The translations under genes and the position numbers were made by a program. Under the pieces are notes generated by a model. It did not search any database. It had not been told where the DNA came from and saw only the letters and a program-made list of their open reading frames with translations. Below are positions 20,889 to 36,576 of a stretch of 36,662 nucleotides of DNA, in pieces (within the stretch, counting starts at the first letter, position 1; each line of letters starts with the position of its first letter). This DNA is from Prosthecobacter sp. (GTDB lineage: Bacteria > Verrucomicrobiota > Verrucomicrobiia > Verrucomicrobiales > Verrucomicrobiaceae). The DNA is taken from NCBI RefSeq assembly GCF_029946185.1, contig NZ_JAQSEA010000156.1, positions 1 through 36,662 of the forward strand, read 5' to 3'.

Positions 20889-22604
20889 ATGCCCAACCGC
20901 TTTTTACTCTCGTTTTTGTCCGTCGTGCTGAGTGTGGTGCCTGCCATGCTTCACGCTGCCCAGCCGAATATCATTTTAATCATGTCAGACGACATGGGCT
21001 TCTCAGACCTGGGCTGCTACGGCGGGGAGATTCAGACGCCTCATTTGAACCAACTGGCAAAGGGCGGCGTGAGGCTTAGCCAGTTTTACAACGCCGGGCG
21101 GTGCTGCCCGACGCGGGCTTCGTTGCTCACGGGGTTGTATCCGCATCAGGCGGGGATCGGGCACATGATGGAGGATCGTGGGCAGGAGGGGTATCGGGGG
21201 GATTTGAACGGGCGCTGTGTGACGATCGCGCAGGTGCTGAAGCCTGCGGGGTATCGGACGTATGCGGTGGGGAAATGGCATGTGACGAAGCATGCGGTGC
21301 CGAAGGGGCCGAAGACAAACTGGCCGCTGCAGCGTGGGTTTGACCGTTTCTATGGGACGATCACGGGTGCGGGCAGTTTTTATGATCCGGGTACACTGAC
21401 GCGGGATGACTCTATGATCTCGCCCTTCGCGGATGCGGAGTACCAGCCGAAGCAGTATTATTATACGGATGCGATCAGCGACCATGCGGTGCGCTTCATT
21501 GATGAACATGCGCGTGAGAAAAAGCAGCAGCCGTTTTTCATGTATGTGGCCTACACAGCGGCGCACTGGCCGATGCATGCGCTGGCGGAGGATGTGGCGA
21601 AGTACAAGGGCAAGTATGATGCGGGCTATGAATCCATGCGGCAGGCACGGCTGCTGCGGATGCGGGAGATGGGGCTGATCGCGAAGGACGCGGAGCTTTC
21701 GCCGACGTTTGGGGACTGGTCGCAGGTGAAGGACAAGGAGTGGGAGACGCGCTGCATGGAGACGTATGCGGCGATGATCGATCGCATGGACCAGGGCATC
21801 GGCCGGGTGGTGGGGTCGCTGGAAAAAAACGGGCTGCTGCAAAACACGCTGATTCTTTTCCTTCAAGACAATGGTGGCTGCCAGGAGGGCATCGGGCGGC
21901 AGGCCACGCCGCCTGCGTTCAATGAGAAGACTTTTCCTGTGATCGCGCAGGATGCGATCCGGGTGGAGGTGATCCCGAAACAAACGCGCGATGGGCAGGC
22001 GGTGAAGCAAGGGCAGGGGACCATGCCCGGCGGCCCGAACGACTACATCGCCTATGGTGAAGCGTGGGCGAATGTATCGAACACGCCGCACCGAGAATAT
22101 AAACATTTTGTGCATGAGGGCGGGATCAGCACGCCGCTGATCGCGCACTGGCCGGCGGGGATTCCAGTGGCACAAAACGGCAGGATCGAAGCGCAGCCGG
22201 GGCACCTCATTGATGTGATGGCGACGTGTGCGGATGTGGCTGCAGCGAAGTATCCGGCGGAACTCAACGGGCAAAAAATCCAGCCGATGGAGGGCGTGAG
22301 TTTGGCACCGGCCTTGCAGGGACGCAGTGCTGAGATGCGGCCGATCTTCTGGGAGCATGAAGGCAATCGCGCGCATCGTGCGGGGCCGTGGAAGCTGGTG
22401 TCGAAGGAGAACACCCCGTGGGAGCTCTACCAGATCGACCAAGACCGTGCGGAGTTGCATGATCTGGCGGCGGCGGAACCGGAGCGCGTGAAAGTGATGG
22501 CTGCGGCCTGGGAAACGTGGGCGGCCCGGTCGCACGTGCTGCCGCTGGGGAGTTGGAGAAGTCCCAACAGTGTCAAAAATGCGAAGGCCAGGCGGCCTAA
22601 ATAA
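20889..22604 (+). CDS. Secreted type I sulfatase (arylsulfatase-like)
   Basis: This enzyme would remove sulfate from a sulfated sugar or aryl ester in the periplasm or outside the cell. The 571-residue protein has a signal peptide (ending LHA before AQPNII) and the sulfatase start NIILIMSDDMGFSDLGCYG with metal-binding Asp34 and Asp35. The active-site signature is C72-C-P-T-R76 followed by ASLLTGLYPHQAG; Cys72 should be converted to formylglycine by a maturase encoded elsewhere. GKWH (about 128-131), AHWP and DNGG (about 329-332) are further conserved catalytic-site motifs. The C-terminal WELYQIDQDRAELHDLA block is normal. The leader is C/T-rich without a Shine-Dalgarno. Sulfatases like this are abundant in PVC bacteria; the substrate cannot be told from sequence. 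Confidence 0.95.
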   Translation: MPNRFLLSFLSVVLSVVPAMLHAAQPNIILIMSDDMGFSDLGCYGGEIQTPHLNQLAKGGVRLSQFYNAGRCCPTRASLLTGLYPHQAGIGHMMEDRGQEGYRGDLNGRCVTIAQVLKPAGYRTYAVGKWHVTKHAVPKGPKTNWPLQRGFDRFYGTITGAGSFYDPGTLTRDDSMISPFADAEYQPKQYYYTDAISDHAVRFIDEHAREKKQQPFFMYVAYTAAHWPMHALAEDVAKYKGKYDAGYESMRQARLLRMREMGLIAKDAELSPTFGDWSQVKDKEWETRCMETYAAMIDRMDQGIGRVVGSLEKNGLLQNTLILFLQDNGGCQEGIGRQATPPAFNEKTFPVIAQDAIRVEVIPKQTRDGQAVKQGQGTMPGGPNDYIAYGEAWANVSNTPHREYKHFVHEGGISTPLIAHWPAGIPVAQNGRIEAQPGHLIDVMATCADVAAAKYPAELNGQKIQPMEGVSLAPALQGRSAEMRPIFWEHEGNRAHRAGPWKLVSKENTPWELYQIDQDRAELHDLAAAEPERVKVMAAAWETWAARSHVLPLGSWRSPNSVKNAKARRPK

Positions 22605-22636
22605 ATACTCATGCCACATTGATTTTGGAACGGATC

Positions 22637-23092
22637 ATGCTGACAATCTTGCTTATGGACCTTTCCCAAATTGCTGTCGATATTCCCACGTTGAAGCTGT
22701 GCTTATCCGTCGTCGGCGGACTGCTGGCACTTTCGATGGTGCGCATTCTGTTTCTGTTGCGCAGCAACGCACGCCTGCGTGAAAGCACGGCCAAAATGGA
22801 GCAGCAGGTGCTCAATCAGCAACAGGCGCTCCTCTCGGTGCGCTCGGATTCCAATGCGTGGCGCGGCGATCTGCAACGCATGTTTGATTCCTTTCGGGCG
22901 GAGTTTTCCAAGCGGCTGGATGAGTCCGAGCAGCGCTACCAGAACATCCAGCAGCGTTCAGAAATCATCAGCAAACCGGCCAAGCCGTTTGCGATGTCCA
23001 CGCCTTCCATGCCGCCATCGTTCGCGATGGCCAGGGATGAGGAGCCGGAAGACAAATCGGTGCTGCCGGTCCCTGCGCTGAACATCTCCTAG
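22637..23092 (+). CDS. Single-helix coiled-coil membrane protein, paralog 1
   Basis: I do not recognise a named family. The 151-residue protein has one membrane helix (about 18-42, LCLSVVGGLLALSMVRILFLL) and then a charged, Gln-rich helical region likely to form a coiled coil (45-110), ending in a loose Pro/Ser tail. Residues 75-99 (AWRGDLQRMFDSFRAEFSKRL onward) align with 64-88 of the next gene, so the two are tandem paralogs. The frame can start at a TTG at 22619; the ATG at 22637 is preferred, and an ATG at 22655 is also possible. It begins 32 bases after the sulfatase. Topology suggests a short outer end and the coiled coil in the cytoplasm or periplasm. Confidence 0.75.
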   Translation: MLTILLMDLSQIAVDIPTLKLCLSVVGGLLALSMVRILFLLRSNARLRESTAKMEQQVLNQQQALLSVRSDSNAWRGDLQRMFDSFRAEFSKRLDESEQRYQNIQQRSEIISKPAKPFAMSTPSMPPSFAMARDEEPEDKSVLPVPALNIS

Positions 23093-23205
23093 CTCGCAAC
23101 TGAGCAGAGAGTCACCGGCGGCAGTGACCTGCTGCCTTGGCGAAGCACCGCCCCTAGCTTTGGTTTGGAACAACGTTTGCAGCATCAACATTCATCAACA
23201 GCGCA

Positions 23206-23757
23206 ATGACTCAGGAACATCAGATTTTGCTTTTTGGCATCACCCTCGTCAGCGGCCTGTTTTTGATCTCCCTGATTCGCCTTTTTAGGCTCTCTCGCGC
23301 CAACCGCCGCATGGGGGCTGAAAGCATCAAGATGGAAAAGCAGGCGGCGCTGAAGGACATGGAAGTCACCGCCATCCACCATGATGCGATGTCATGGCGG
23401 GCGAAAACGCAGCGTCAGTTTGAGGCGCTACGCGGCGAGTTTTCACACCGGTTGCAGCAGTCTGATCAAGGCGGCATGCATGTCCTGAAGGAATGGGAGG
23501 AGGCGCAGAAGAAGGAGATATCAGCGGCACTCGCGAAAATTTCAGAGCTGGAGGCGGCGCTTTCCGCCAAGCCAGTCGCCGAGCTGCCCGCGAAGGAGAT
23601 TTTGCACATCCAGTCGCTGGAGTCCGAACTGGCGGCGGCGAAGGCTGAAATCGCCAGCGGCAGGCAGCAGAATGTGGTGCTGCAGCGTGACTTGCTGCTG
23701 TCACGGCGCAAGGGGGCTGCGCCTGCCGTGCGGAAAAGCAGTCTGCGCAGCGCCTGA
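23206..23757 (+). CDS. Single-helix coiled-coil membrane protein, paralog 2
   Basis: The 183-residue protein repeats the layout of its upstream neighbour: one N-terminal membrane helix (about 8-28), a basic stretch (FRLSRANRR), and a long Ala/Glu/Lys-rich coiled coil (40-165). The shared block SWRAKTQRQFEALRGEFSHRL (two pieces: SWRAKTQRQFEA, LRGEFSHRL; from residue 63) matches AWRGDLQRMFDS, FRAEFSKRL in the first protein. The C-terminal coiled coil is longer here, and the end is basic (RRKGAAPAVRKSSLR), which could touch nucleic acid or lipid. The start is an ATG with a weakly purine-rich leader. Function is unknown; a scaffold for the nearby PilT ATPases is one possibility based on location only. 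Confidence 0.8.
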   Translation: MTQEHQILLFGITLVSGLFLISLIRLFRLSRANRRMGAESIKMEKQAALKDMEVTAIHHDAMSWRAKTQRQFEALRGEFSHRLQQSDQGGMHVLKEWEEAQKKEISAALAKISELEAALSAKPVAELPAKEILHIQSLESELAAAKAEIASGRQQNVVLQRDLLLSRRKGAAPAVRKSSLRSA

Positions 23758-23825
23758 GGGAAGAAAATCACCCGATTGCTTTTTTTCTCGCCAACGGTGA
23801 GAGAACGTCTTTAATGCATGTAAAG

Positions 23826-23841
23826 CAGGTGCCCCCACCTG
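23826..23841. promoter_or_regulatory. Short perfect hairpin upstream of the YqjD-like gene
   Basis: CAGGTG and CACCTG form a perfect 6-bp stem with a CCCC loop, 29 bases ahead of the start at 23871. An operator or a leader structure is possible; there is no T run for a terminator. Confidence 0.35.
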
Positions 23842-23870
23842 AATGCCCACCACCACACCCTTTTCGTACC

Positions 23871-24257
23871 ATGACTGAGAACCCCTCCGCAGAGTCTGCC
23901 TTCGGCAGCAGTCCGTCGCATGATCCATTTCAGGCCGCGAAAGCCAGCGCGATGAAGGCCGCTGAAGAACTGCGTGCCGCAGCAGCGCAGAAGGCGTCCG
24001 AATTCCGCAACGCCGCCGAAACGCGCGCGCAGCAGTTCCGCAGCACTGCGGAACAGAAGGCGAGTGACTTCAAGGAAAAGGCCAGCGATCTCAAGGAGAA
24101 GGCTGGCGAATTTGCCGACCACACTTTCAGTGAAGCCCGGGTGCGCTGTGACGATCTGCGGGCCGAGGCTGAAAAATTTGCCCGTGAGAAGCCGCTGCAG
24201 GCGCTGCTCACGGCATTTGGCATTGGTTTTGTCGTCGGGGCCATCCTGCGCCGCTAA
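23871..24257 (+). CDS. YqjD/ElaB-like (DUF883) membrane-anchored helical protein
   Basis: The 128-residue protein is a long amphipathic helix with 11-residue-type repeats (KASEFRNAAETRAQQFR, EQKASDFKEKASDLKEKAGEF; about 40-82) and a C-terminal membrane anchor LLTAFGIGFVVGAILRR preceded by REKPLQA. This ending is the hallmark of the ElaB/YqjD family, inner-membrane proteins that in E. coli bind ribosomes in stationary phase. The start ATG at 23871 removes a Pro-rich upstream extension (frame open from 23814). The next two genes have the membrane character of YqjE and YqjK, so this is a yqjD-yqjE-like cluster. Confidence 0.8.
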   Translation: MTENPSAESAFGSSPSHDPFQAAKASAMKAAEELRAAAAQKASEFRNAAETRAQQFRSTAEQKASDFKEKASDLKEKAGEFADHTFSEARVRCDDLRAEAEKFAREKPLQALLTAFGIGFVVGAILRR

Positions 24258-24276
24258 TACGCGCCCTCTTCCCGAC

Positions 24277-24678
24277 ATGAACTCAGGCCTGCCGCCCGAC
24301 CCCGAGGAACGCGCCAGTGCAACAGGATTGTTGCGCGCCGTTGCCTTATACATTGAGGCGCGTGGGCGCCTGCTGCACATCGAAGTCCAGGAAGCAGGCA
24401 GCCGCATCGGGGGTCTGTCCGGCATGTTCATGCTGTCCCTGGCCGCCTTCGTCATTGGCTGGATGCTGGCCACTCCCGCGCTGGTCTGGATCATCGCTGA
24501 TGCCAATGGCTGGCACTGGACGCGCGTGGCCCTCGCCGGCGCTGGCATTCATCTTTTTCTCGGACTGTTGCTGCTCGCCGGACTGAAGTCCAGGCTGCGC
24601 GGCATGAAGCTCTTTGAGGAATCATTCAATCAACTTCACCGCGACCGCGAATGGCTAGCCCGCAACAAGAACAACTGA
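24277..24678 (+). CDS. Holin-X/YqjE-like membrane protein
   Basis: The 133-residue protein has two central membrane helices (about 48-70 and 82-105) flanked by charged helices, with ALYIEARGRLLHIEVQEA at 23-40, a pattern of the Holin-X/YqjE (phage holin superfamily III) group. Despite the family name there are no phage genes nearby; in many bacteria this is a chromosomal partner of YqjD. The start at 24277 is 19 bases after the previous stop; the stop overlaps the next gene by 28 bases. The precise role is unknown. Confidence 0.75.
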   Translation: MNSGLPPDPEERASATGLLRAVALYIEARGRLLHIEVQEAGSRIGGLSGMFMLSLAAFVIGWMLATPALVWIIADANGWHWTRVALAGAGIHLFLGLLLLAGLKSRLRGMKLFEESFNQLHRDREWLARNKNN

Positions 24679-25052
24679 CGCCCAAGCAGCAGGCTTTGTA
24701 TGACCTCGAGTACGCCCGTGCTTCACTGGCGCACCATGCCGTGCATGCGGCGGAGGAGTGGAGTCCGAAGGCCATCATCACCCGCAGTGTGGAAAAGCAC
24801 CGTGGGCTTTGGATTGGCGCTGCCGCCATCGCAGGGCTGGTAGTGCTGAAAGCCGTGTGGCCCTCGCGGCGCTCGCGCTTCCAACCTGAACCTTCCCTTA
24901 GTGGCGCGCAGAGAAGTGGTTTGTTTGCTCTCATGCTCAGTCCGCTGCTTGGTCTCGCGCGTAAATCCCTGATGAGTTACGGCAGCCAAATGGTTCAAAG
25001 TTATCTGCGCCAGAAAATTTCTCCGAACGTTCCAGATTCCGAAGCAGTCTAG
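24651..25052 (+). CDS. Small membrane protein in the YqjD-YqjE-like cluster
   Basis: This 133-residue product occupies the place of YqjK in yqjD-E-K clusters, but the sequence does not clearly belong to that family. It has a charged N-terminus, a membrane helix (about 53-68, LWIGAAAIAGLVVLKAVW) and a second, weaker hydrophobic stretch (about 88-105). It overlaps the previous gene by 28 bases, suggesting coupled translation, and ends 15 bases before the first PilT gene. Thus the YqjD-like trio and the PilT pair may share a transcript. Confidence 0.7.
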   Translation: MASPQQEQLTPKQQALYDLEYARASLAHHAVHAAEEWSPKAIITRSVEKHRGLWIGAAAIAGLVVLKAVWPSRRSRFQPEPSLSGAQRSGLFALMLSPLLGLARKSLMSYGSQMVQSYLRQKISPNVPDSEAV

Positions 25053-25067
25053 CTTCATCTCTTTTTC

Positions 25068-26171
25068 ATGTCCGATTCCAACCAACCCCCACAAGATACT
25101 CTTCCGGTCTTAGGCTCCGTTGATGACTACCTGCGTTTTTGCATGGAGTATGATGCATCTGATCTGCATCTTGCCACCGGCTCACAACCTGTCTGGCGGC
25201 GCTATGGCAATCTGCAGCCCATCTGGGACAATGCCTCCATCCTGACGCCTGAGGACACCCGCCGCCTGGCTTATGGCTTCCTGGGAGAGCCGCAAGTCAA
25301 ACAGCTTGAAGCACGCGGCGATGTCGACTTCGCCTACTCGCCGGCCTTCGGGCGTTTCCGCTCTTCTGTCGTCCAGCAGCGCTTGGGCATCGACATGGTT
25401 TTCCGTGTCATCAAAACCAGCATCAAGTCCGTTGAAGACCTCGGCCTGCCAGCCACGGCCAAAACGCTCACGCGTTTCCACAACGGCCTGATTCTCGTCA
25501 CCGGCCCGGTGGGCTGCGGCAAATCCACCACGCTGGCGGCGTTGGTTGACTCCATCAACCAGGAGCGGCAGGACCACATCATCACACTGGAAGACCCGAT
25601 TGAGTACATCCTCGAGCCCAAGGGCTGCCATGTGAATCAGCGCGAAGTACACACGCACACCGCCTCGTTTGCCGCCGCGCTGCGCGGGGCATTGCGCGAA
25701 GATCCGGACGTGATCATGGTCGGTGAAATGCGTGACCTTGAGACCATCTCCCTGGCCATCACCGCTGCGGAAACGGGACATCTTGTGCTCGGTACCCTGC
25801 ACACCGGCAGCGCCGCCCGCACCCTGGACCGGGTGCTGGATGTGTTCCCCATTGATCAGCGGGACCAGATCCGCATCATGGTGTCTGAATCCCTGCGTGG
25901 CATCCTCTCCCAGCAGCTGGTGCCCAGACTCGACGGCAACGGCCGTGTGATGGCGCTCGAAGTGCTCGTCAACACGCCCGCCGTCGGCAACTGCATCCGT
26001 GAAGGCAAGACCTACATGCTCGCGGGTGTCATGCAGACCGGCAAAAGTGTCGGCATGATCACGATGGATGATTCATTGCGCAATCTCTACACGGCCGGAG
26101 AAATCAGCCGTGAGGAGTGTGAGTTCCGCTCTGAGGACAAGATCATCATGAAAAAATTCTTTGAATCCTGA
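25068..26171 (+). CDS. PilT-type ATPase, first copy
   Basis: This 367-residue protein is a retraction-type secretion ATPase that powers type IV pilus disassembly at the inner membrane. It shows the PilT set: EYDASDLHLATGS (27-39), Walker A GPVGCGKSTT (146-155), Asp box TLEDPIEY (173-180), Walker B VIMVGEMRD (215-223) and His box GTLHTGSA (242-249). Walker A reads VGCGK where most PilT have TGSGK. The C-terminal AIRNLIRE motif of PilT is altered to AVGNCIRE. It differs well beyond orthology from the second copy and may be PilU- or PilT2-like. No PilB, PilC or pilin is in the window. Confidence 0.92.
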   Translation: MSDSNQPPQDTLPVLGSVDDYLRFCMEYDASDLHLATGSQPVWRRYGNLQPIWDNASILTPEDTRRLAYGFLGEPQVKQLEARGDVDFAYSPAFGRFRSSVVQQRLGIDMVFRVIKTSIKSVEDLGLPATAKTLTRFHNGLILVTGPVGCGKSTTLAALVDSINQERQDHIITLEDPIEYILEPKGCHVNQREVHTHTASFAAALRGALREDPDVIMVGEMRDLETISLAITAAETGHLVLGTLHTGSAARTLDRVLDVFPIDQRDQIRIMVSESLRGILSQQLVPRLDGNGRVMALEVLVNTPAVGNCIREGKTYMLAGVMQTGKSVGMITMDDSLRNLYTAGEISREECEFRSEDKIIMKKFFES

Positions 26172-26209
26172 GGCCTTCAGCCACGCCAACCGACCACTGC
26201 GAACGTCTC

Positions 26210-27313
26210 ATGCCAATCATTGATCAATATTTCCAGAAGCTCATCGAACTGGGCGGCTCTGACCTCCACCTCAGCCAGAAGCAGCCGCCCAAGGTGCGCG
26301 TGCATGGCAGCATCAAGCCCATCTCCGACCAGATCCTGGACGATCGCCTCATGGAGACCATGATGCGTGAAATCTGCGAGCCCCGCGCCTGGGACCGCTA
26401 CAAGGAAAAGGGAGATCTCGACTTCGCGTACGAGATGGACCAGGACAACCGCTTCCGTTGCAACTACCTGCGCCAGCAGCATGGCTACGCCGCCGTGTTT
26501 CGTATCATTCCCACCAAGATCGCCAGCCTGGAGCAGCTCGGCATTCCTCAAGTGGTGAAGGAATTCGGCCACTTGCGCAGCGGCTTGGTGCTCGTCACCG
26601 GCCCGACCGGTTCGGGCAAATCCACCACGCTGGCCGCCCTGCTGGACTACATCAACACCAACTTCCGCCGCCACATCATCACGATCGAAGAACCGATCGA
26701 GTTCGTGCACCGCAACAAGAAGAGCATCATCACCCAGCGTGAGGTGCCCATCCAGACTCCTTCATTCGCCGACGGTCTGCGCGCCGCGCTGCGTCAGGAT
26801 GCGGACATCGTTCTCGTGGGGGAAATGCGCGACCTTGAAACCATCTCGCTGGCGCTGACGGCGGCAGAGACCGGCTTGCTCGTCTTTGGCACCCTGCATA
26901 CGAACAACGCCCGCAAGACGGTTGACCGTATCATTGACGTCTTTCCATCCGATCAGCAAAGCCAGGTGCGCACCATGCTCGCCGCCTCCCTCAAAGGCGT
27001 GGTGGCCCAGCTCCTCATGAAAAAGTCAGACGGCAAGGGCCGTGCCGCCGTGAATGAAATCATGGTGTCCAATCCCGCCGTCAGTGCCATCATCCGTGAA
27101 GGTGCCACGCAAAAGCTCTACGACGTCATCATCGGCGGCAAATCCCAGGGCATGCAGTTCATGGACGAAGCCATCTGGCAGAAGCTGCGTGACGGCTACG
27201 TCACGCCGATGGAAGCCTACATGAAGGCCATCGACAAGAACCGCTTCAAAGCCTTCCTTCCCCCCGAAGATGCCGGACTCGCCGTCGCCAGTGGTGGCGA
27301 CGCCAACAAATAG
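26210..27313 (+). CDS. pilT: PilT-type ATPase, second copy
   Basis: A second retraction ATPase of the same length (367 residues), 38 bases after the first. Motifs are the canonical ones: ELGGSDLHLSQ (13-23), Walker A GPTGSGKSTT (131-140), Asp box TIEEPIEF (158-165), Walker B IVLVGEMRD (200-208) and His box GTLHTNNA (227-234). The C-terminal motif reads AVSAIIRE, also relaxed. It lacks the extra 15 N-terminal residues of the first copy and has a longer C-terminal tail. The pair may act as a PilT/PilU team, as two-ATPase retraction is known in other bacteria. The start has no Shine-Dalgarno (leader CGAACGTCTC). Confidence 0.93.
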   Translation: MPIIDQYFQKLIELGGSDLHLSQKQPPKVRVHGSIKPISDQILDDRLMETMMREICEPRAWDRYKEKGDLDFAYEMDQDNRFRCNYLRQQHGYAAVFRIIPTKIASLEQLGIPQVVKEFGHLRSGLVLVTGPTGSGKSTTLAALLDYINTNFRRHIITIEEPIEFVHRNKKSIITQREVPIQTPSFADGLRAALRQDADIVLVGEMRDLETISLALTAAETGLLVFGTLHTNNARKTVDRIIDVFPSDQQSQVRTMLAASLKGVVAQLLMKKSDGKGRAAVNEIMVSNPAVSAIIREGATQKLYDVIIGGKSQGMQFMDEAIWQKLRDGYVTPMEAYMKAIDKNRFKAFLPPEDAGLAVASGGDANK

Positions 27314-27366
27314 CCCGACGCAGACAGGCAAGTGAAGCAGTTGAATCTTGCCGCAGCGCACGCGGT

Positions 27367-27387
27367 GAATTAACATCGCTTTAATTC
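27367..27387. promoter_or_regulatory. AT-rich hairpin at the start of the Pro-rich gene
   Basis: GAATTAA (27367-27373) and TTAATTC (27381-27387) form a perfect 7-bp stem with loop CATCGCT, ending four bases before the ATG at 27392. It could be an operator or could mask the start in the RNA. It is one of the few AT-rich spots in this region. Confidence 0.4.
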
Positions 27388-27391
27388 AAAG

Positions 27392-28798
27392 ATGAGCACG
27401 GCTTCCGAGGACAGTTCATCAGACCAGCCGCAACGCACCAGTCATCAGCCTGGCCCGTTGGCAATTCTTGCTGCCACGGCGATGGGTGGTGTCCTGGCCA
27501 CACGCCTGGGCAAAGCGCCTTTGATTTTCGCCGCCGGTGCTGCGGCACTGGCGCTGCTGCGGCAGAAAAAGACGGCGGCTCCGCCACGGGCCGAGCCGCA
27601 AGACCTGCCCCCTCCAGAGCCCCCGCTAGAAATTCCTGAGCAGAGCGCGCCGCCGCTTGAGAGTCCTGAGCAGAGTTTGCCGCCACCTGCTCCGCCACCC
27701 GAAATCTCCGCACAGAGCCAGGTCGAGCAGTGGCTTTCACGCCAAATCAGCCGCGAAGCCCAGGCCCCGGTCGTGGATTTTTCCACGCTCACAGTCACGC
27801 AGCGAGAGCGTGAAGATGATTACCGCCCCGGCTCCTTTCTGTTGGATGAATTTGACGACACCGCCAGCGCAGCACCCTTCGACAACGATTCCTATGCCAG
27901 CCTGACTGAACCCGCGTCTGAAGCGCTTTGGGTGCCTGAGCCCTTGATCGCTGAGGATGAACCGACGTTCGCGGCGGCGGAGCCGATGAATGCAGCGGAA
28001 GAGGAGGAACTGGAGACACCTCCCGCAGCACCCGCCGTGGCAGATGCCTTGGCAGATGCCTTGGCAGATGCCTTGGCAGATGCCGCGTGGACTCTCGGTG
28101 TCGATCCCATGCCGAGCCTGAGCGACCCTGCGCCCCACGCCCCCCCGGCCGACAGCATGATCTTCAACCCATCGGCAGCGCAAGAAGACGTCAGCAGCCC
28201 GCAAGAAGCTCCGCGCTCAAACATGTTTTCCTCGGCACCGGCTCAATACGAAGAGGCCGAGCCACCGCCCTTTTTTTCCACTTCAGTTTTCCAAGGCGCA
28301 GCACTCCCGGATGAAATCCAGGTCGCTCCCCCCGTTGAACCCGTGGCCGTCATGCCGGCACCGCCACCGCCTCCCGCCGAAATGGTCCCTGCATGGGAGC
28401 CTGAGCCCCCGGTGATCGAGTCTCCACCCGCTGCGCTAGCCGCCCCGGAGATCCCGCTGGAGCTTGCGGCAGATGGCGACGCCTCCTTTGATCCACCCCT
28501 GGCCGCCGCGCCCGCCAACCCCTGGCAGCTTGCGCCGGATGGCTTTCCAATGACGCCCGCAGTTCCTTTTCAGGTGCAAACGACAGGCGCCGTGGTCGAA
28601 GCCGAGATCATCCTGCGCCCGCGCGCACCGATGCAGAACTCGGTGCCCCCGAAATCTAAATTTGCCACGTCGAATTTCAGCAACCCTTTCTCTGACGAAA
28701 GCCACAACACCCCGCCTGCCCACTTTCCCGGCGCGCCCCTATCTCCGCGTGAGCCCAAACCTCGCACGACCTGGCGCTCCTGGTGGCGGGGGGACTGA
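27392..28798 (+). CDS. Pro/Ala/Glu-rich membrane protein
   Basis: I do not recognise a family. The 468-residue protein has a short N-terminus, two adjacent hydrophobic segments (about 21-37 and 42-57) likely to form a membrane hairpin, then about 400 residues of low-complexity Pro/Ala/Glu-rich sequence with scattered acidic and aromatic positions, predicted disordered. A 12-bp tandem repeat at 28039-28084 gives a run of ALAD units in the middle. The extreme C-terminus turns basic and aromatic (KPRTTWRSWWRGD), which could be a binding site. It follows the second pilT gene by 78 bases and ends eight bases from a convergent gene. A spacer or tether in the envelope is possible. Confidence 0.75.
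   Translation: MSTASEDSSSDQPQRTSHQPGPLAILAATAMGGVLATRLGKAPLIFAAGAAALALLRQKKTAAPPRAEPQDLPPPEPPLEIPEQSAPPLESPEQSLPPPAPPPEISAQSQVEQWLSRQISREAQAPVVDFSTLTVTQREREDDYRPGSFLLDEFDDTASAAPFDNDSYASLTEPASEALWVPEPLIAEDEPTFAAAEPMNAAEEEELETPPAAPAVADALADALADALADAAWTLGVDPMPSLSDPAPHAPPADSMIFNPSAAQEDVSSPQEAPRSNMFSSAPAQYEEAEPPPFFSTSVFQGAALPDEIQVAPPVEPVAVMPAPPPPPAEMVPAWEPEPPVIESPPAALAAPEIPLELAADGDASFDPPLAAAPANPWQLAPDGFPMTPAVPFQVQTTGAVVEAEIILRPRAPMQNSVPPKSKFATSNFSNPFSDESHNTPPAHFPGAPLSPREPKPRTTWRSWWRGD
28039..28084 (+). repeat. 12-bp tandem repeat (3.8 copies) in the Pro-rich gene
   Basis: The unit GGCAGATGCCTT is repeated exactly three times and then for ten more bases. It is a multiple of three, so copy-number change would lengthen or shorten the ALAD run without shifting the frame. 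The absence of third-position changes points to recent expansion. Confidence 0.9.
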
Positions 28799-28806
28799 GG
28801 CTGTTT

Positions 28807-29337
28807 TCAGGGAAATGCCGAACGAACACTGCTCTGCTCATAAAATGAGGGAACTGCATCGTAGTGACCAGTCACCGGCTCAAAGCGTCCATTTTTGCAG
28901 TGTTTGAGATAGGCCAGCCAAGTCGGATGATAGGCAGGCCAGGTTGCGGTTCCTTGTCCCACGCCGTTCACTTTCACCATGGCCTCACGCTCAACGGGGC
29001 CAATCGTAAATCTCACGAACTGAGCTCCATTATAGCTGCCGCGCACGCGGTCCGAGTAAGTGAAGTGAACGATTTTCAGAGGCTCTTCAGTCTTAGCCGA
29101 GCCTTTGAAAACAGTAAGGACTTTGAAGGTGGTGACCCACGCCTGATAGTCTTCTTTGGAGAGCTTTGAATTTTTGAGGAAGTCCGGTTCCAAGTCTGTT
29201 TTCTCGGTGCTTAACGCCTCGATCACAACCACCGTATCAGCTGCGGCCGTCAGTTCGGCCTGCGTCCAATTTCTCACCAGCCGTGCCTGTGCCCAGCAAG
29301 CGATTCCAACCAGAGTAATAGTCAGCAGTTTTTTCAT
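28807..29337 (-). CDS. Small secreted protein of unknown function
   Basis: I do not recognise a family. From the ATG at 29337 the protein has 176 residues with a signal peptide (MKKLLTITLVGIACWAQA). The mature part has ADTVVVIEAL near its start, VTTFKVLTVFKG, LKIVHFTYSD and GPVEREAMVKVNG, and ends WLAYLKHCKNGRFEPVTGHYDAVPSFYEQ. The pattern (a value-bearing beta domain in which a cost or exposure to a secreted ligand is read, then a W-Y-L-K-x-x-x-x-G-R-F-E-P-V-T-G motif) recalls short conserved secreted proteins of Verrucomicrobiota, but this is an impression. The frame is open to 29439, inside lnt; the ATG at 29337 is chosen for the signal peptide. It lies 56 bases after lnt on the same strand. 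Confidence 0.75.
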   Translation of the reverse strand: MKKLLTITLVGIACWAQARLVRNWTQAELTAAADTVVVIEALSTEKTDLEPDFLKNSKLSKEDYQAWVTTFKVLTVFKGSAKTEEPLKIVHFTYSDRVRGSYNGAQFVRFTIGPVEREAMVKVNGVGQGTATWPAYHPTWLAYLKHCKNGRFEPVTGHYDAVPSFYEQSSVRSAFP

Positions 29338-29393
29338 GACGCTTTCAAGATATGTAATCCGAACAGTTCTCGTCCAGCTTATAATGACATCGA

Positions 29394-31100
29394 TCAAACC
29401 TTGGTCGCAACTTTCCGCCTCAGCAGGCTGCGGCCCCAAACCAGCACGCAGAGGCCGAGCAGCGTCAGCGCAAACCAGTCGCCAAATCGTGCATAGAGCG
29501 TGAGGTGCCCTGCACGCGGAACCTTGACCTCCCCGGGCAGCGTGCCTTCGATAAAGGAAGAGCCGGTCTCAGGATCTTTAAGCCGGGCGGTGACGCGGCC
29601 GCAGGTGTCGATGAAGCAGCTCTCACCGGTATTGGTGGCGCGCACCATAGGCCGGCCCAGTTCGATGGAGCGGAAGAGGGCATTGATCATGTGTACTTCG
29701 GGTTCTTCGCTTTGCAGGAACCAGCCGTCATTGGTGATGTTCACGATCATCTGCGGTGCCTCGCGCACAAACTTGCGCGCCAGACTGCCCACCGTGTCTT
29801 CAAAACAGATGAGCGGGATGATCTGCACCTGCGGCTGTGCCAGCAGCAGGGGCTCGGTTTTGACTCCCGGAGTGAAGGAGCCCTCAAACATGCTTTGAAA
29901 AAAGGAGAACGGCGGGATGTCGCGCAGCGGCAGGTATTCGCCGAAGGGGACGAGGTGCACTTTGTGGTACTCCTGACGCTGGTCGGTACTGCCATGAAAC
30001 AGCACGGCAGAGACGTGGCCGATGACATCGCTCTCATACAGATCCGTGCCGAAGAAGAGGCTGAAGTCGCCTGATTCCAGCATGTCATTGAAGTAATTTT
30101 TATGAAAATCCTTGGGAAGATAGCGATACCGGTCCTCCAGATTCACCGGCAGCGCGCTCTCGGGCCAGATGATGAGATCGGTGGCGGTCTTGCCCTCCTT
30201 CGCCGTGCCGTACATGCGGGTGAACTGATCGAGGTGCTGATAGGTTTGCTCCGCGAGCCTGCCCGTCGCCGCATCCACCAGCGACACATTGGGCTGCACG
30301 AGAACGGTGCGTACGGTGATGCTGTCCTGCTCCTTGGCGCTCATCTTGAGCATGCCGTAACTGGCGGTGACAAGAAGGAGGATCAAAGCGAGGGTGAGAT
30401 CGAGCCGCGTCCTGCAGGTGCCCTCTCCGCGAAAGGCGATGATGAGGCGGGTGACGGTGTTCCAGAATGTGCAGGCGAAGAACACCGGCAGAAAGGACAG
30501 GCCAAAGACGCCGACCAGATCCGCCGCCTGAGCGAGCGGCAGATTGCCATGCATCGCCACACCGAGGCCGTTCCAACCAAAGCCGGTGAAGACGGTGGTG
30601 CTGCGCAGCCATTCGCAGGCGACCCATGCGGATGCGGCAAGAAATGAGCAGGCGAGGGAATGGAGCGTGCTGGGCCACCACGCATCCTTGGTCAGCGTGG
30701 TCACATTGGGTCGGGCAAAGCGGTGCGTGAACCAGGCCCACAGGCCAAAGTAAACGGCGCAGTAGCCGGACAAGCCAATGAGCGCGCCCCAGCCCAGCAG
30801 CTCTGGCCCCAGCCCCACCCAGGAGTCATCGATGGCACCGCCCATCCTCACTCGTGCGGAATGATGCACCCATTTCAAATTCGGCAGGAAGAATGCCAGT
30901 CCGGCCAGGTAGCCCCGCCAGAACGGGCGCACTTTGACACCTTCAACATCCTTCCATGGCCACAAGACAGCCAGCAGCGGGAAGAGCCACAGCCAGACCG
31001 CGAGATTTGAATTCCAGCGTGGAAAAGCAAACATCAGAATCACACCGCTGAGCAGCGGGGCGATGAACATGAACAGGCGCAGGCGTTTGGTATCAGTCAC
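29394..31100 (-). CDS. lnt: Apolipoprotein N-acyltransferase Lnt
   Basis: Lnt adds the third acyl chain to lipoproteins in the inner membrane, the step before Lol sorting. The 568-residue protein has about seven membrane helices in the N-terminal half and a nitrilase-type periplasmic domain, then a last helix near the C-terminus. The catalytic triad is visible: Glu314 in WPESALP, Lys380 in YHKVHLVPFGEYLP and Cys432 in LICFEDTV. The usual ICYE is ICFE here. The start is a GTG at 31100; a later ATG would cut the first helix. It agrees with the presence of lipoproteins and a LolD-like ATPase in this window. Confidence 0.95.
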   Translation of the reverse strand: MTDTKRLRLFMFIAPLLSGVILMFAFPRWNSNLAVWLWLFPLLAVLWPWKDVEGVKVRPFWRGYLAGLAFFLPNLKWVHHSARVRMGGAIDDSWVGLGPELLGWGALIGLSGYCAVYFGLWAWFTHRFARPNVTTLTKDAWWPSTLHSLACSFLAASAWVACEWLRSTTVFTGFGWNGLGVAMHGNLPLAQAADLVGVFGLSFLPVFFACTFWNTVTRLIIAFRGEGTCRTRLDLTLALILLLVTASYGMLKMSAKEQDSITVRTVLVQPNVSLVDAATGRLAEQTYQHLDQFTRMYGTAKEGKTATDLIIWPESALPVNLEDRYRYLPKDFHKNYFNDMLESGDFSLFFGTDLYESDVIGHVSAVLFHGSTDQRQEYHKVHLVPFGEYLPLRDIPPFSFFQSMFEGSFTPGVKTEPLLLAQPQVQIIPLICFEDTVGSLARKFVREAPQMIVNITNDGWFLQSEEPEVHMINALFRSIELGRPMVRATNTGESCFIDTCGRVTARLKDPETGSSFIEGTLPGEVKVPRAGHLTLYARFGDWFALTLLGLCVLVWGRSLLRRKVATKV

Positions 31101-31161
31101 GGGCCGGGATCATGCCGTCACCTGACGAAAAGCCAAATGTGAATGTGGGTGAGTTTAAGCC

Positions 31162-31249
31162 GGAGCGCGGCAGCGCGACCGCAGTCCCTATCGGAGGGGG
31201 GCGTCAGGCACTGTCCGATTCCTCCCAAAAGTTGTCCGCACAGCAGGCT
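31162..31249. repeat. Dispersed repeat, copy B (GGAGCGCGGC...ACAGCAGGCT)
   Basis: GGAGCGCGGC at 31162-31171 is followed by GACCGCAG and, after an insert with its own stem (ATCGGA at 31190-31195 with TCCGAT at 31214-31219), by CACAGCAGGCT to 31249. The beginning and end match copy A at 20656-20701. It occupies the divergent gap between lnt and the second CxxCH gene. Confidence 0.45.
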
Positions 31250-31292
31250 GGTCAAACGGTGTTATTTCGAGCGATAATCCAACTCATCCACC

Positions 31293-34220
31293 ATGAAAGC
31301 ATTCCTGCTACTTTTGATCTCTGCCGTTTTCGCCCATGCTGCGCCCACCGGCCCCATCCGTGTGCTCTACCTAGATGCCGAGGGCAAGGAGCAGACCACC
31401 GTCGGCCCCCTGCATGCAGCGATGCGTGATCTGGGCCGCGATGCAATCTGGTTTGATTATGCCAAAGAAGAACTTCCTGCCGGTGACTACGACCTCATCC
31501 TCAAGCCCGGCAGTGATTTGAGCCGCGACGCGATCCTCTCCAAACTCAGCCCCGAGCGCAAAGCCAGCTACGAGGCCTTCCTGGCCCAACGCGACCCCGA
31601 GGTGCGCGAGAAACACCCGCAGGTGGCCAATTACGAAAAGCGCCCGGAGCCGCTCACACTGCAACTGCCCATGAGCGTGAAAGGCAGCATGGCGCGCACG
31701 CAGGTTCCTGCCGATTGCGAGCTGAAACTCTTCGCCAGTGAGCCGGACATCGCCAAGCCCATCGCCTTCGCATGGGATGAGCGCGGCCGCTGCTGGGTGG
31801 TGGAAACCCGCGACTACCCCCATGGCGTCACCGACAGTGGCGAAGGCCAGGACAGCATCAAAATTTGCGAAGACACCGATGGCGATGGCAAAGCCGACAA
31901 ATTCACCGTCTTTGCCGACAAGCTCAATCTGCCAACGGGCATTGTGTTTGCGCGTGGGGGCATCATTGTGAGTCAGCCGCCGAAGTTCATCTTCCTGAAG
32001 GACACCGACGGCGACGATAAAGCCGATGTGCGTGAAACCGTGATCGACGGCTGGGGCATCCGCGACACGCATGCTCAGGCCAGCAACCTCCACTACGGCT
32101 TCGACAACTGGATCTACGGCTGCGTGGGCTACAGCGGCATCGAAGGATACGTCGGCGGTAAAAAGCACCAGTTCTCCATGGGCACCTATCGTTTCAAAAG
32201 CGACGGCAGCGCCCTTGAGTTCCTGCATCAGTTCAGCAACAACTCCTGGGGGCACAGCACCAATGACGCGGGAGATCAGTTCGGCGGCACCGCGAATGGC
32301 GCGCCCCTCTTCTTCGGCGGCATTCCCGCCACCGCCTATACCGAAGGCTCACGCGGCATGACGGCAAAGAAGATCAATGTCGTCGATACCTGCCACACCA
32401 TCACGCCGAATTTCCGGCAGGTGGACGTCTTCGGCGGCTACACCTCGGCAGCAGGCAGCAATTTTATTTATAGCGACAAATTACCGAAGCGGTTCCAAGG
32501 CAAAGCCATGGTCTGCGAGCCGACCATGAAAGTCGTCGCACTCTTCGATCTGCAGCCCGACGGCGCCGGTTGGAAGGCGCTCGACTTCATGAACATCTAC
32601 GCCAGCAGCGACGAATGGAACTCCCCCGTCCATGCCGAAGTCGGCCCCGATGGCGCAGTGTGGGTGGCCGATTTCGAAAACTTCATCATTCAGCACAATC
32701 CCACCCCCAGCGTGGAGCGCGGCGGCTTCGTCGCCACCACCGGCAAAGGCGGCGCTCATGAGAATGACATTCGTGATCACTCACGCGGGCGGATTTACCG
32801 GATCGTGGCGAAGGGTGCTGGCAAAGCTCCCGTTTACCATTTTGCAGTCCAGGAGACCAAGGAGAAGGGTGTAAGCTTTCTCGGTTCTTCGCCTGATCTG
32901 GTGATGGCATTGAGTGACCCCAATCCATTCTGGCGTCTCACCGCACAACGGCTGCTTGTTGAAGGACATGCCCACGGCATGAGAGGAAACATCATCATTG
33001 GCGGTGCCCCCGGCAATCTTGAGCCAAAGACCATTTTGGGACTTGGTGGGGACATAGATTTAGCGTTAAACAAACTAGTCTCCACAAGTGACAGTGGCCT
33101 TGCTGCGATTCACGCATTGTGGTCTCTTGATGGTCTTGAATTTTTAGATAAATCAACTCACCAAGCCGCGCTCATCTCCAAAGACGCCAAACTGCGCCGC
33201 AATGCCATCCGCGCCCTCGGCTCTGACAAAATAGCCCAGGATCTGTTCTTCGGCTCCGGCACATTCAACGACCCCGATCTCCACACCCGCCTCGCCGCCT
33301 TCGTCAAACTCTCCGACTTCACCACCACCCCCGAGATCCAGACGCTCGTCAAAAAGCTTGCCGCTGATCCCATCGTAAAAAACGACGAATGGCTGGCCGA
33401 AGCTGCGAAGATGCTGGGCAAGAAGCACAAGGCGCTGAACTACAAGGAAGGCCCGAACCTCCTGCCCAACCCCGGTTTTGAAGAGATAGCCGCAGGCACG
33501 AAGACACCGACCGCATGGAAGCTGCGCAACTACGGCAAGAAGCCCGGTAATGCGGGGGCGGAGTGGAGCATCGTCACCGATGGGAAAATGGTCCACAGCG
33601 GCAAGCAGGCTTTCCGCGTCATCACCCGCGATGACGCCGACACCAGTTTCTTTGCCGACCTGCCGCTCAAGCCGAACACCGAATACAAGCTCAGTGCCTG
33701 GATCAAGACCCACGGCTTCAAAGGCAAAGCCAGCCTCAATGACCACCTCGGCCGCGCGGAGACCACCACGATCAAGCGCACCCAGGACTGGACCGAAGTG
33801 GAAGTCACCTTCAACAGCAAGACCCGCGACAAAGCCAGCATCAACCTCCTGCATGTGGCGAAGGGCGATACCTACTTTGATGATATGCGCCTGGTGGAAC
33901 TGATCCCCGAAATCGAAGAAGATGAATCCAAGCTGGCGGGCGATGTGAAGCGCGGCGAGAAAATCTTCTGGGAGCACCCCGTCGCCGCCTGCAAAAACTG
34001 CCACATGCTCAAAGGCCAGGGCAGCGCTGTGGGGCCTGCACTGGATGGCATAGCCACGCGCAAAGACGCCGCCTACATCCTCGAAAGCCTCGTGAATCCG
34101 AACGCCAGACTCGCCGAAGGCTACACCGCCACACCGATCTCCCCGATGCCGCCGATGAATCTCATTTTGAAGCCGCAGGAGTTCGCCGATGTGAAGGCGT
34201 TTATTCTGAGTTTGAAGTGA
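31293..34220 (+). CDS. PVC-type CxxCH protein with ThuA-like and carbohydrate-binding-like parts
   Basis: The 975-residue secreted protein (signal MKAFLLLLISAVFAHA) has several parts in order. Residues 20-130 resemble a shortened ThuA-like domain (IRVLYLDAEGKEQT..., then a linker NYEKRPEPLTLQLP known from this family). A sugar-dehydrogenase-like propeller follows (about 140-520) with calcium-type loops DTDGDGKAD and DTDGDDKAD. Then come HEAT-like helices (about 545-700), a galactose-binding-like module (about 722-870; NLLPNPGFEE to YFDDMRLVE) and a cytochrome c domain with C900-KNC-H904. The substrate is unknown, but the added module suggests a polymeric sugar. The segment coded at about 32820-33170 has lower G+C and different codon use. 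The next gene starts 133 bases on. Confidence 0.9.
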   Translation: MKAFLLLLISAVFAHAAPTGPIRVLYLDAEGKEQTTVGPLHAAMRDLGRDAIWFDYAKEELPAGDYDLILKPGSDLSRDAILSKLSPERKASYEAFLAQRDPEVREKHPQVANYEKRPEPLTLQLPMSVKGSMARTQVPADCELKLFASEPDIAKPIAFAWDERGRCWVVETRDYPHGVTDSGEGQDSIKICEDTDGDGKADKFTVFADKLNLPTGIVFARGGIIVSQPPKFIFLKDTDGDDKADVRETVIDGWGIRDTHAQASNLHYGFDNWIYGCVGYSGIEGYVGGKKHQFSMGTYRFKSDGSALEFLHQFSNNSWGHSTNDAGDQFGGTANGAPLFFGGIPATAYTEGSRGMTAKKINVVDTCHTITPNFRQVDVFGGYTSAAGSNFIYSDKLPKRFQGKAMVCEPTMKVVALFDLQPDGAGWKALDFMNIYASSDEWNSPVHAEVGPDGAVWVADFENFIIQHNPTPSVERGGFVATTGKGGAHENDIRDHSRGRIYRIVAKGAGKAPVYHFAVQETKEKGVSFLGSSPDLVMALSDPNPFWRLTAQRLLVEGHAHGMRGNIIIGGAPGNLEPKTILGLGGDIDLALNKLVSTSDSGLAAIHALWSLDGLEFLDKSTHQAALISKDAKLRRNAIRALGSDKIAQDLFFGSGTFNDPDLHTRLAAFVKLSDFTTTPEIQTLVKKLAADPIVKNDEWLAEAAKMLGKKHKALNYKEGPNLLPNPGFEEIAAGTKTPTAWKLRNYGKKPGNAGAEWSIVTDGKMVHSGKQAFRVITRDDADTSFFADLPLKPNTEYKLSAWIKTHGFKGKASLNDHLGRAETTTIKRTQDWTEVEVTFNSKTRDKASINLLHVAKGDTYFDDMRLVELIPEIEEDESKLAGDVKRGEKIFWEHPVAACKNCHMLKGQGSAVGPALDGIATRKDAAYILESLVNPNARLAEGYTATPISPMPPMNLILKPQEFADVKAFILSLK

Positions 34221-34353: not shown

Positions 34354-36576
34354 ATGCGAACAGTTTCCCTCCTGCTCCTCACCTGCCTCATGATTGGTCA
34401 GGCAGACGCGGCCTCGAAATCAAAGGCTGAGTCCCAGCCAGCGGCTCCCGCCCAGACCGCCACCGAACTGGCAGCGACCATCCGTCCGTCGCTGGTCAAA
34501 ATCACCCAGATCGGCCGCGAAGGCACCGACGGCATCGGTTCCGGTTTCATCGTGAGCGAGGACGGCCTCATCGCCACGAATCTGCACGTCATAGGCGAAG
34601 CACGCCGTCTGCAAATCGAGATGCACGATGGCAAAACTTACAATGTCACCGTCGTCCAGGCCAGTGACAGCCATCACGACCTCGCCCTGCTCAAAATTGA
34701 CGCCAAGGGCCTCAAACCTCTGCCGCTAGGAGATTCCAGCACAGTCCGCCAGGGCGATCCCATTGTCGCCATGGGCGCCCCGGAAGGTCTGGGTTTTAGC
34801 ATCGTCCAGGGTGTGCTCTCCGCCACCCGTGATGTGGATGGCCTGGAGATGCTGCAGGTCGCCGTGCCCATCGAAAAAGGCAACAGCGGCGGTCCGTTGC
34901 TCGACATGCAGGGAAATGTGCTGGGCCTGCTCACCCTAAAGTCGCTCAAGACTGACAACCTCGGCTTCGCCATGCCGGTGAACGACCTCAAATCCCTCAT
35001 CGAAAAACCCAATCCCGTGCCCATGTCCCGCTGGCTGACCATTGGCGCGCTGAATCCCAAACAGTGGCAGGCCCATCTGGGGGCGCAGTGGACGCAGCAT
35101 GCCGGCGTCATTCGTTCCGAATTTTCAGGCGCAGGCTTTGGCGGTCGCGCGCTCTGCCTCTCGACCCAGAAGGTGCCCGAAGGCACTTTTGAGATCGCCG
35201 TGAATGTGCGGCTCGAGGATGAATCCGGTGCCGCCGGCCTCACCTTCTGCTCCGATGGCGCGGACAAGCACTACGGCTTCTACGCCTCGGGTGGGAAGCT
35301 TCGCCTCACCCGCTTTGACGGCTCCGACGTCTATTCCTGGACCATCCTCGCCGATGTCCCGAGCGATGCCTACAAATCCAGTGAATGGAACACGCTGCGT
35401 GTCCGCGTCGAGCCTGGGCGCATCGTCTGCTTTGTGAATGGCCAGCAGATCATTGAAAGTGACGACACCGGCCTGCGCGGCGGCTCTGGCGGTCTGTGCA
35501 AATTTAGGACGACCGTGGCGCAGTTTCGCAATTTCCGCATCGGCACCGACCTCGCCGAGAAGCCGCTGCAACCCGAGGTCGCCTCCCAGCTCCGCTCCAA
35601 GTTGGAAGAATACATCGCCGCAGCGGCCACCGCCGACAAAACGCTGGACGGCCTGCTGGAAAACCCCGCAGCAGCTAGGCGCGTGCTGGTGGAACAGCGT
35701 CGCAAGCTTGAGGAAGAAGCCGCAAAGCTGCGCGATCTCGAACACGAACTGCACCGTCGCGCCATGACGAAGGAAATCCTCGCCGAACTCGCCAAACCCG
35801 AGCCGGAGATCAATCTGTTGCGCTGTGCTCTGCTACTGGCACGTCACGACAACCCGGAGATCGACATCGCCACCTACATGAACAGTTTCAAGTCCATGGT
35901 GCTTGATCTCAAAGACGATCCCGAGATCAGCAAGGGCACCATCCCGGCCGTGAAACGAATCAGCCGCTATCTCTTTGAAGAGAATGGCTTTCATGGCAGC
36001 CGGGGCGACTACAGCAGCCGCTCCAACAGCTACCTCAACGAAGTCATTGATGACCGCGAAGGTCTGCCCATCACACTGAGCGTGCTCTACGTCGAGCTGG
36101 CTTCCGCCCTCGGCGTACAGGGCGTGTTTGGCGTGCCGCTGCCCGGCAAGTTCATGGTCGGCTATCGCGATGGCCCCGAAGGCGAGCTCCAGCTCGTCGA
36201 TGTCTTTGAGCACGGGAAACTCGTCACCGTGGAGGAGGCGGCGCTGGATCTCACCGAGGACGGTCATTTCCCCGAAGGCGCGCTCTCACCCACCACCAAG
36301 CAGGCCATCCTGCTGCGCATGCTGCGCAATCTGATGAGCAGCGTGTTTGATGCCAGCCGCTCGCTGCGCGAGTCGCTGCCGTATTTGAATCTCGTCCTCG
36401 CCATTGATCCCCAGTCCACTGGGGAGCGTCTTACCCGTGCGCAGATGCGTCAGCGTCTTGGTGAAAAAGCCGGTGCCCGTGAAGACGTGACCTGGCTGAT
36501 CGAAAATTTCCCCGCCGATGGCCCGCCGGAACTCATCCAGCAGCTCGACCGCTGGATGCAGTCGTTGCAAGACTAG
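34354..36576 (+). CDS. Secreted HtrA-type protease / LamG-like / SirB1-like fusion
   Basis: The 740-residue protein from the ATG at 34354 has a signal peptide (cut near ADA-ASK) and three parts. Residues 35-230 are a trypsin-like HtrA/DegP domain with a full triad: His78 (TNLHVIG), Asp109 (HHDLALLKI) and Ser178 (KGNSGGPLL). No PDZ domain follows. Residues 245-425 look like a LamG/3-keto-disaccharide-hydrolase-like beta-sandwich (YGFYASGGKLRLTRFDG, WNTLRVRVEPGRIVCFVNGQ). After a coiled coil (430-500), residues 505-740 match the SirB1/Transglut_core2 type (RYLFEENGFHGSRGDY, SNSYLNEVIDDREGLPITLSVLY) with TPR-like helices. The family motif PGHF reads PGKF, with Lys599 in place of His. The frame is open to 34222, but that part lacks a signal. 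Confidence 0.88.
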   Translation: MRTVSLLLLTCLMIGQADAASKSKAESQPAAPAQTATELAATIRPSLVKITQIGREGTDGIGSGFIVSEDGLIATNLHVIGEARRLQIEMHDGKTYNVTVVQASDSHHDLALLKIDAKGLKPLPLGDSSTVRQGDPIVAMGAPEGLGFSIVQGVLSATRDVDGLEMLQVAVPIEKGNSGGPLLDMQGNVLGLLTLKSLKTDNLGFAMPVNDLKSLIEKPNPVPMSRWLTIGALNPKQWQAHLGAQWTQHAGVIRSEFSGAGFGGRALCLSTQKVPEGTFEIAVNVRLEDESGAAGLTFCSDGADKHYGFYASGGKLRLTRFDGSDVYSWTILADVPSDAYKSSEWNTLRVRVEPGRIVCFVNGQQIIESDDTGLRGGSGGLCKFRTTVAQFRNFRIGTDLAEKPLQPEVASQLRSKLEEYIAAAATADKTLDGLLENPAAARRVLVEQRRKLEEEAAKLRDLEHELHRRAMTKEILAELAKPEPEINLLRCALLLARHDNPEIDIATYMNSFKSMVLDLKDDPEISKGTIPAVKRISRYLFEENGFHGSRGDYSSRSNSYLNEVIDDREGLPITLSVLYVELASALGVQGVFGVPLPGKFMVGYRDGPEGELQLVDVFEHGKLVTVEEAALDLTEDGHFPEGALSPTTKQAILLRMLRNLMSSVFDASRSLRESLPYLNLVLAIDPQSTGERLTRAQMRQRLGEKAGAREDVTWLIENFPADGPPELIQQLDRWMQSLQD

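Follow-up and report, generated by a model that had tools for sequence, protein, structure and literature searches.

Is a protein that joins an HtrA-type serine protease to a beta-sandwich and a SirB1 module real, and if so, what would such a combination do? The window that we analysed (the whole of contig C156, 36,662 bases) encodes a protein of this kind close to its end (Table 1). The initial annotation, which was made from the sequence, proposed the order protease, sandwich, SirB1, and Pfam finds the matching families in just that order: Trypsin_2 (residues 62-192, E = 8.4e-32, 111.3 bits against a cut-off of 27.6), 3keto-disac_hyd or DUF1080 (PF06439; residues 237-396, E = 6.7e-8, 33.2 bits against 26.8), and Transglut_core2 (PF13369; residues 529-658, E = 8.3e-30, 103.7 bits against 23.5). 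The last of these falls within residues 505-740, which had been assigned to the SirB1 family. TPR_9 matches residues 670-722 with 26.9 bits, under its cut-off of 35. In NCBIfam, HtrA-type models match the protease and SirB1 the C-terminus, each under its curated cut-off, so no named NCBIfam family covers the fusion. PADLOC lists three defence models, all of them on the protease part.

An in-frame GTG at 34222 lies 5' of the ATG at 34354, but we prefer the ATG because a hydrophobic stretch follows it. Within the first 60 residues, a 12-residue hydropathy peak of at least 1.8 (a threshold of our own choosing) is found in 47 of 47 fusions (L071 and L086, which are cut at a contig end, were left out of the 49), as against 1 of 28 stand-alone SirB1 frames, which were scanned over a longer N-terminal stretch. 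Because of this difference, we think that the fusion protein, unlike ordinary SirB1, is probably exported. A scan for promoters and terminators gave one promoter-like site (0.6 expected) and five terminator-like sites (2.3 expected, standard deviation 1.6), none of the five being behind the fusion gene.

Table 1. Parts of the fusion gene and its protein, in positions of the window
Feature	Position	Strand	Basis
Fusion gene, 740 aa, stop codon included	34354..36576	+	Open frame, translation, relatives
Hydrophobic N-terminus, probable Sec signal peptide, residues about 1-20	34354..34413	+	Hydropathy; cleavage site by eye
HtrA-type serine protease domain, residues 46-218	34489..35007	+	Trypsin_2, HtrA1 fold match, triad
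Protease H78	34585-34587	+	Triad
Protease D109	34678-34680	+	Triad
Protease S178	34885-34887	+	Triad
Linker PNPVPMSRWLTIGALNP, residues 219-235, at the place where the HtrA PDZ starts	35008..35058	+	Conservation
DUF1080/3keto-disac_hyd beta-sandwich, residues 236-398	35059..35547	+	PF06439, strands in model
Helical spacer, poorly conserved, perhaps coiled coil, residues 404-480	35563..35793	+	Model, conservation
SirB1 module, transglutaminase-like part, residues 484-628	35803..36237	+	Transglut_core2, module model
Pro572 at the transglutaminase Cys place	36067-36069	+	Alignment, spacing
Lys599 at the His place	36148-36150	+	Translation
Asp616	36199-36201	+	Residue counts
SirB1 module, C-terminal TPR-like helices, residues 645-740	36286..36573	+	Sub-threshold TPR_9, model, TPR structures

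Conservation, age and surroundings of the fusion

The fusion is a conserved architecture in two phyla and not a local oddity. In the window's family, 64 of 68 genomes match the protein at E up to 1e-60 (protein search), some of the copies being partial; the four genomes without a match are two fragmentary ones from the window's genus and both that were sampled from another genus. An alignment search of the order found matches in 148 of 386 genomes at E up to 1e-80. In a second phylum, which we take to be Planctomycetota on one record only (L083), 21 of 294 genomes match at E up to 1e-60, a count that includes the search centre itself (G728, the genome behind L083) and one match in the C-terminal part only. 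The order and second-phylum searches scored 2 or 3 candidates per genome, so a missing match there is no proof of absence. All three Pfam families were found in each of the relatives that we scanned, 28 of 28 in one set and 11 of 11 in another. The copies are many and independent, some of them on contigs of 7-8 Mb (G447, G780, and G801), and we found nothing that favours an assembly artefact or two genes joined by chance; both are ruled out for practical purposes.

As for plasmids, no record contained 80% or more of the query at a single location. In the open-licence PMC literature that we searched, we found no description of the fusion architecture or of a link between SirB1 and menin. Two relatives deviate: in L053/L080 the C-terminus differs and the match stops near residue 671, and L054/L075 is spread over two frames. 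We read both deviations as sequencing error or decay.

How old is the fusion? With a profile of the C-terminal part, a search of 236 genomes of the class gave 72 matches, which form two groups. The 23 stronger ones (E up to 4.2e-74) lie in frames of 732-915 amino acids, and the other 49 (E from 3.4e-44 up) lie in frames of 279-520 amino acids. Because the groups are separate in both E value and frame length, the fusion-type SirB1 domain forms a distinct subfamily. When 40 fusion domains and 27 stand-alone ones are placed in one tree, each set falls on its own side of one branch (support 100/99, with a warning about long branches). The stand-alone sample began as 31 loci (L001 and L090-L119); L119 turned out to be a fusion, and the motif did not match L001, L102, and L114, which left 27 proteins. 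In a tree of 24 fusion proteins, one branch (98/94) separates the 10 rows from the second phylum from the 14 from Verrucomicrobiota, and rpoB from 13 genomes gives the same two-group split (100/100); the genome behind L089 (Planctomycetaceae) gave no rpoB match and is not in that tree. The window's fusion is 42-45% identical to those of the second phylum, and rpoB is 48-52% identical between the two groups. Since the fusion splits the two phyla on one branch, as rpoB does, the trees fit old vertical descent, which seems to us the simplest reading of the fusion's spread. The midpoint root of the 24-protein tree falls within Verrucomicrobiota, and there may instead have been an old transfer out of that phylum.

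Every segment that we tested is under purifying selection (pairwise dN/dS for five segments in six pairs; these are simple estimates, and a few cells have dS above 1). In four of the six pairs, dN/dS is lower for the transglutaminase-like part than for the protease, and in three pairs no other segment has a value as low. In the three closest pairs, its values are 0.027, 0.035, and 0.053, compared with 0.049, 0.049, and 0.048 for the protease. We also counted the positions that are at least 90% conserved in 38 of 40 rows (L080 and L086 were left out). Among the seven segments counted, the linker PNPVPMxRWLTIG comes out on top (13 of 17 positions), and the others include the protease (74/173), the sandwich (68/163), the transglutaminase-like part (46/145), the TPR-like part (20/96), and the helical spacer (7/77).

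Among the loci that we compared, including ten in a blast comparison, we found no neighbour common to distant fusion loci, so the neighbours do not point to a client. Even the gene directly 5' of the fusion in the window (31293-34220) differs from the fusion's neighbour in close relatives. In two of these (L063 and L074), the fusion adjoins the ortholog of a DUF7133/cytochrome gene that lies at 14212-17034 in the window. Here, about 17 kb (17288-34220) separate the two, so the region has been rearranged or an insert has been gained. The intervening DNA encodes a helicase, a sulfatase, two PilT-like ATPases (PilT/PilU-type pilus ATPase genes in tandem, at 25068-26171 and 26210-27313), Lnt, and another DUF7133/cytochrome protein. 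Elsewhere in the window, the protein encoded at 4183-5790 matches GH75, a family of fungal chitosanases (E = 2e-9). In L165 (412-7632) and L170 (867-8109), from two genomes of the second phylum that are similar to each other, the fusion gene heads a run of genes on the same strand; in L165, the rest of the run encodes an unknown protein, a rhomboid protease, and an M16 peptidase (Pfam). The ten-locus comparison joined this run between L165 and L170 only and did not locate the fusion in L083.

The protease and the sandwich

The protease triad is complete, as had been proposed. Across 49 distinct fusions (L142 was dropped as the same gene as L083, and truncated rows were kept with gaps), H78 is present in all 48 rows that cover it, and D109 and S178 are present in all 49. 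The protease part of the structure model matches the HtrA1 catalytic domain with Z = 28.6 over 190 residues (rmsd 3.2; VIA).

The claim that there is no PDZ domain also held up: we found no PDZ family in the window's protein at E up to 0.01 (Pfam), in the 28 relatives of the first set at E up to 0.01, or in the 11 of the second set at E up to 0.001. The highly conserved linker lies at the place where the PDZ would start, and PNPxx[MLI]xxW recurs in 48 of 49 fusion rows. The full-length HtrA model TIGR02037 gives 145.1 bits, under its curated cut-off of 416.2. By fold and triad, the fusion is nevertheless best filed with the HtrA-like proteases, though no PDZ was found and the curated scores were missed. 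In L068, about 5 kb from the fusion gene, there is a second protein (15618-17012) that shares about 37% identity with the fusion along 158 residues, presumably those of the protease part.

The middle domain had been described as a LamG-like sandwich. It belongs to PF06439, which matches 28 of 28 and 11 of 11 members of the two sets. A LamG-type model, Laminin_G_3, matches just 9 of the 28 members at E up to 0.01. A sequence search for solved relatives of the sandwich found none at E up to 1. According to an excerpt of PMC9007349, characterised single-domain DUF1080 proteins include a 3-ketotrehalose hydrolase and an endo-xanthanase/lichenase. Because members of PF06439 can be enzymes, the sandwich may be more than a binder. 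It is followed by the spacer, which the model builds as helices at 407-424, 430-434, and 438-479, with the first partly at pLDDT below 50.

The SirB1 module and its probable resemblance to menin

Does the SirB1 module catalyse anything? The initial annotation suggested that it may bind rather than catalyse, on account of Lys599 in place of the usual His of the PGHF motif. Lys599 is there, and His is indeed the usual residue in stand-alone SirB1 (20 of 27 rows; the other 7 have Arg), but among the 49 fusions, 30 have Lys at position 599, 3 have Arg, and only 16 have His. Lys or Arg is confined to the window's family and its near relatives, and the other fusions have His. As the sole cause of lost catalysis, Lys599 fails, because the place of the transglutaminase Cys is taken by Pro in all 49 fusions. 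All 27 stand-alone rows also have Pro there, as do L001, L102, and L114 when read by eye. We assigned the Cys place to Pro572 by the spacing to the following LG motif and by a weak profile alignment (P = 0.015, probability 3%), which only two transglutaminase proteins, of 12 loci, entered. From these alignments, it appears that the non-catalytic state of the module does not rest on Lys599 and that loss of the Cys place is general. The window's own genome also encodes a stand-alone SirB1 (L001, 1150-2028; 292 amino acids), with the PGHF His and with Pro at the Cys place.

Other positions are more constant. All 49 fusions have Asp at position 616, and conservation is strong on the motifs of the transglutaminase fold (DREGxP, HG, NS, and D616). 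Asp567 and Glu581 are invariant in the fusions and occur in 0 of the 27 stand-alone rows. The SirB1 equivalog model NF008188 gives 32.3 bits, under its cut-off of 391.

Because the structure matches listed for the full-length model were HtrA-type protease chains, we modelled the SirB1 module alone (mean pLDDT 88.8, pTM 0.85). With Foldseek, the best 50 matches listed from the PDB were all human menin (best E = 1.3e-4), and 14 of these 50 reached E up to 0.001. With VIA, the first 39 matches listed were menin as well, with Z of 12.2-13.4 and 217-239 of 261 residues aligned end to end, at rmsd 5.1-6.4 and 10-17% identity. The best of these has Z = 13.4 and rmsd 5.3 over 227 residues, which is close to the doubtful range: VIA warns that among helical folds, Z under about 13 can stem from a common arrangement. 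The VIA matches below menin were TPR-type or other helical proteins with Z of 10.5 or less; the TPR-like part itself is helical in the model, and TPR structures match it at Z up to 10.5. No transglutaminases were among the 50 matches listed for the module model, though the module may still be related to them.

Sequence searches of Pfam and of PDB sequences at E up to 10, with filters that drop most weak matches, did not list menin. Against solved structures, the module matched TPR-type proteins or chaperones and nothing else at E up to 1, and a wider alignment of the module gave just four matches at E up to 10, all of them coiled-coil or lectin chains. We conclude that the predicted module probably resembles menin in fold, and the two may or may not share common descent. 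In a library of viral folds, the only match to the predicted fold at E up to 0.001 is a giant-virus protein, from a Solivirus (BFVD A0A3G5AFW4, E = 2.5e-5).

An excerpt of PMC13256885 describes the palm of menin as having a deep peptide pocket beside a transglutaminase-like thumb. In excerpts of PMC10318531, human menin has no catalytic Cys and is probably inactive, menin and Transglut_core2 are treated under the same cluster, and the function of Transglut_core2 is given as unknown. The same excerpts place FBXO21, an F-box protein for the ubiquitylation and degradation of EID1, in this Pfam family and call its domain inactive and transglutaminase-like. Also, a figure legend from PMC8889267 names SirB1 and Transglut_core2 in connection with plant families around the plastid CLP protease, with the carrier family unstated in that excerpt.

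What the fusion may do, and its place among known systems

Our preferred reading, to which we give a probability of about 0.5, is that the fusion is an HtrA-like envelope protease in which a menin-like, peptide-binding SirB1 module and a glycan-docking sandwich take the role of the PDZ. The HtrA-type serine endopeptidase would be exported to the cell envelope, where the DUF1080 sandwich would dock, perhaps, on envelope or extracellular glycans. The non-catalytic, menin-like SirB1 module would then capture a peptide segment of the client across the helical spacer and present it to the protease or switch the protease on, and the protease would cleave. What the sequences show directly is the order of the domains, the conserved triad, the hydrophobic N-terminus, Pro in the Cys place, purifying selection on the tested segments, and the wide spread of the fusion; the compartment, any oligomer, glycan docking, peptide capture, and the link from capture to proteolysis are all things that we infer. 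The suggestion, made at the outset, that substrate choice may rest on the two domains beside the protease gains support to this extent.

Several points count against this reading. For a module with a conserved peptide pocket, conservation of the TPR-like part is weak. It is doubtful how strong the fold match to menin is, we found no gene neighbour common to the distant loci compared, and enzymes exist in PF06439 (excerpt of PMC9007349).

The existence of such enzymes leads to an alternative that we consider unlikely, namely that the fusion is a bifunctional degrader of glycosylated proteins, with DUF1080 acting on oxidised sugars or glycans, the protease acting on the protein core, and the SirB1 module being only a holder. 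That the sandwich exceeds the PF06439 cut-off and is conserved about as well as the protease would fit this idea, as would the sugar-cleaving activities of its characterised relatives. Nevertheless, the neighbours seen form no consistent cluster for sugar degradation, and a lower dN/dS in the SirB1 part than in the protease, in most of the pairs, is unlike a passive holder.

Alternatively, the SirB1 module might be a regulatory or oligomerisation part that, for example, shields the active site or forms a cage, with no say in substrate choice. HtrA proteins are regulated via extra domains, and both the helical spacer between sandwich and module and the weak conservation of the TPR-like part would suit such a role. 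But the strong conservation on DREGxP, HG, NS, and D616 looks like that of a site, and we doubt this explanation too.

Could the module be an enzyme after all, with an unusual active site (Ser/Thr or other) that acts on proteins or on peptidoglycan cross-links? The 16 fusions with His599 and the invariant D616 speak for this, and it is suggested in an excerpt of PMC10318531 that some papain-like proteins without the Cys, among them menin, might still be active. But every fusion and stand-alone row has Pro at the Cys place, and 33 of the 49 fusions have Lys or Arg where the His would be, which makes an enzyme improbable.

If the preferred reading of a peptide-selecting envelope protease is taken further, a broader idea is possible, which we offer tentatively. 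SirB1 modules could be the bacterial counterpart of menin, as non-catalytic transglutaminase-TPR peptide clamps that have repeatedly come to serve degradation machines. In the lineage of Planctomycetota and Verrucomicrobiota, one of them would long ago have replaced the PDZ of an HtrA, and the resulting glycan-docked, peptide-selected envelope protease would have been kept by both phyla. Whatever its role, the fusion to a protease, under selection in two phyla, offers an experimental handle on Transglut_core2, as the activity of the partner can be measured in the same chain. If the resemblance to menin is true, the fusion would also be a bacterial model of a medically interesting peptide clamp and an example of an HtrA-like protease whose PDZ has been replaced.

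How does the fusion compare with known systems? HtrA, DegP, DegQ, and DegS make up peptidase family S1C. The fusion shares with them the protease fold, a complete triad, and probable export, but it is far under the curated cut-offs of the HtrA models, and where they have a PDZ, we found a DUF1080 sandwich and a SirB1 module instead. With the SirB1 family, it shares a Transglut_core2 match over the cut-off, with TPR-like helices predicted behind it; unlike stand-alone SirB1, it is fused, has a hydrophobic N-terminus, and sits on the other side of a tree branch. The PF06439 sandwich, over the cut-off, is common to the fusion and the DUF1080/3-keto-disaccharide hydrolases, but the characterised examples in the excerpt of PMC9007349 are single domains and the fusion's is the middle domain of a protease. 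FBXO21 resembles the fusion in having a Transglut_core2 domain that is called inactive in a setting of protein degradation (excerpt of PMC10318531), although it has F-box-related and YccV-like domains, works via ubiquitin, and is not a protease. Finally, menin has a transglutaminase-like part followed by TPR helices, which align end to end with the module model, and it too is missing the catalytic Cys (excerpt of PMC10318531). Menin is nevertheless a nuclear scaffold of 610 amino acids (excerpt of PMC13256885), and it has 10-17% identity and no detected sequence relation to the module.
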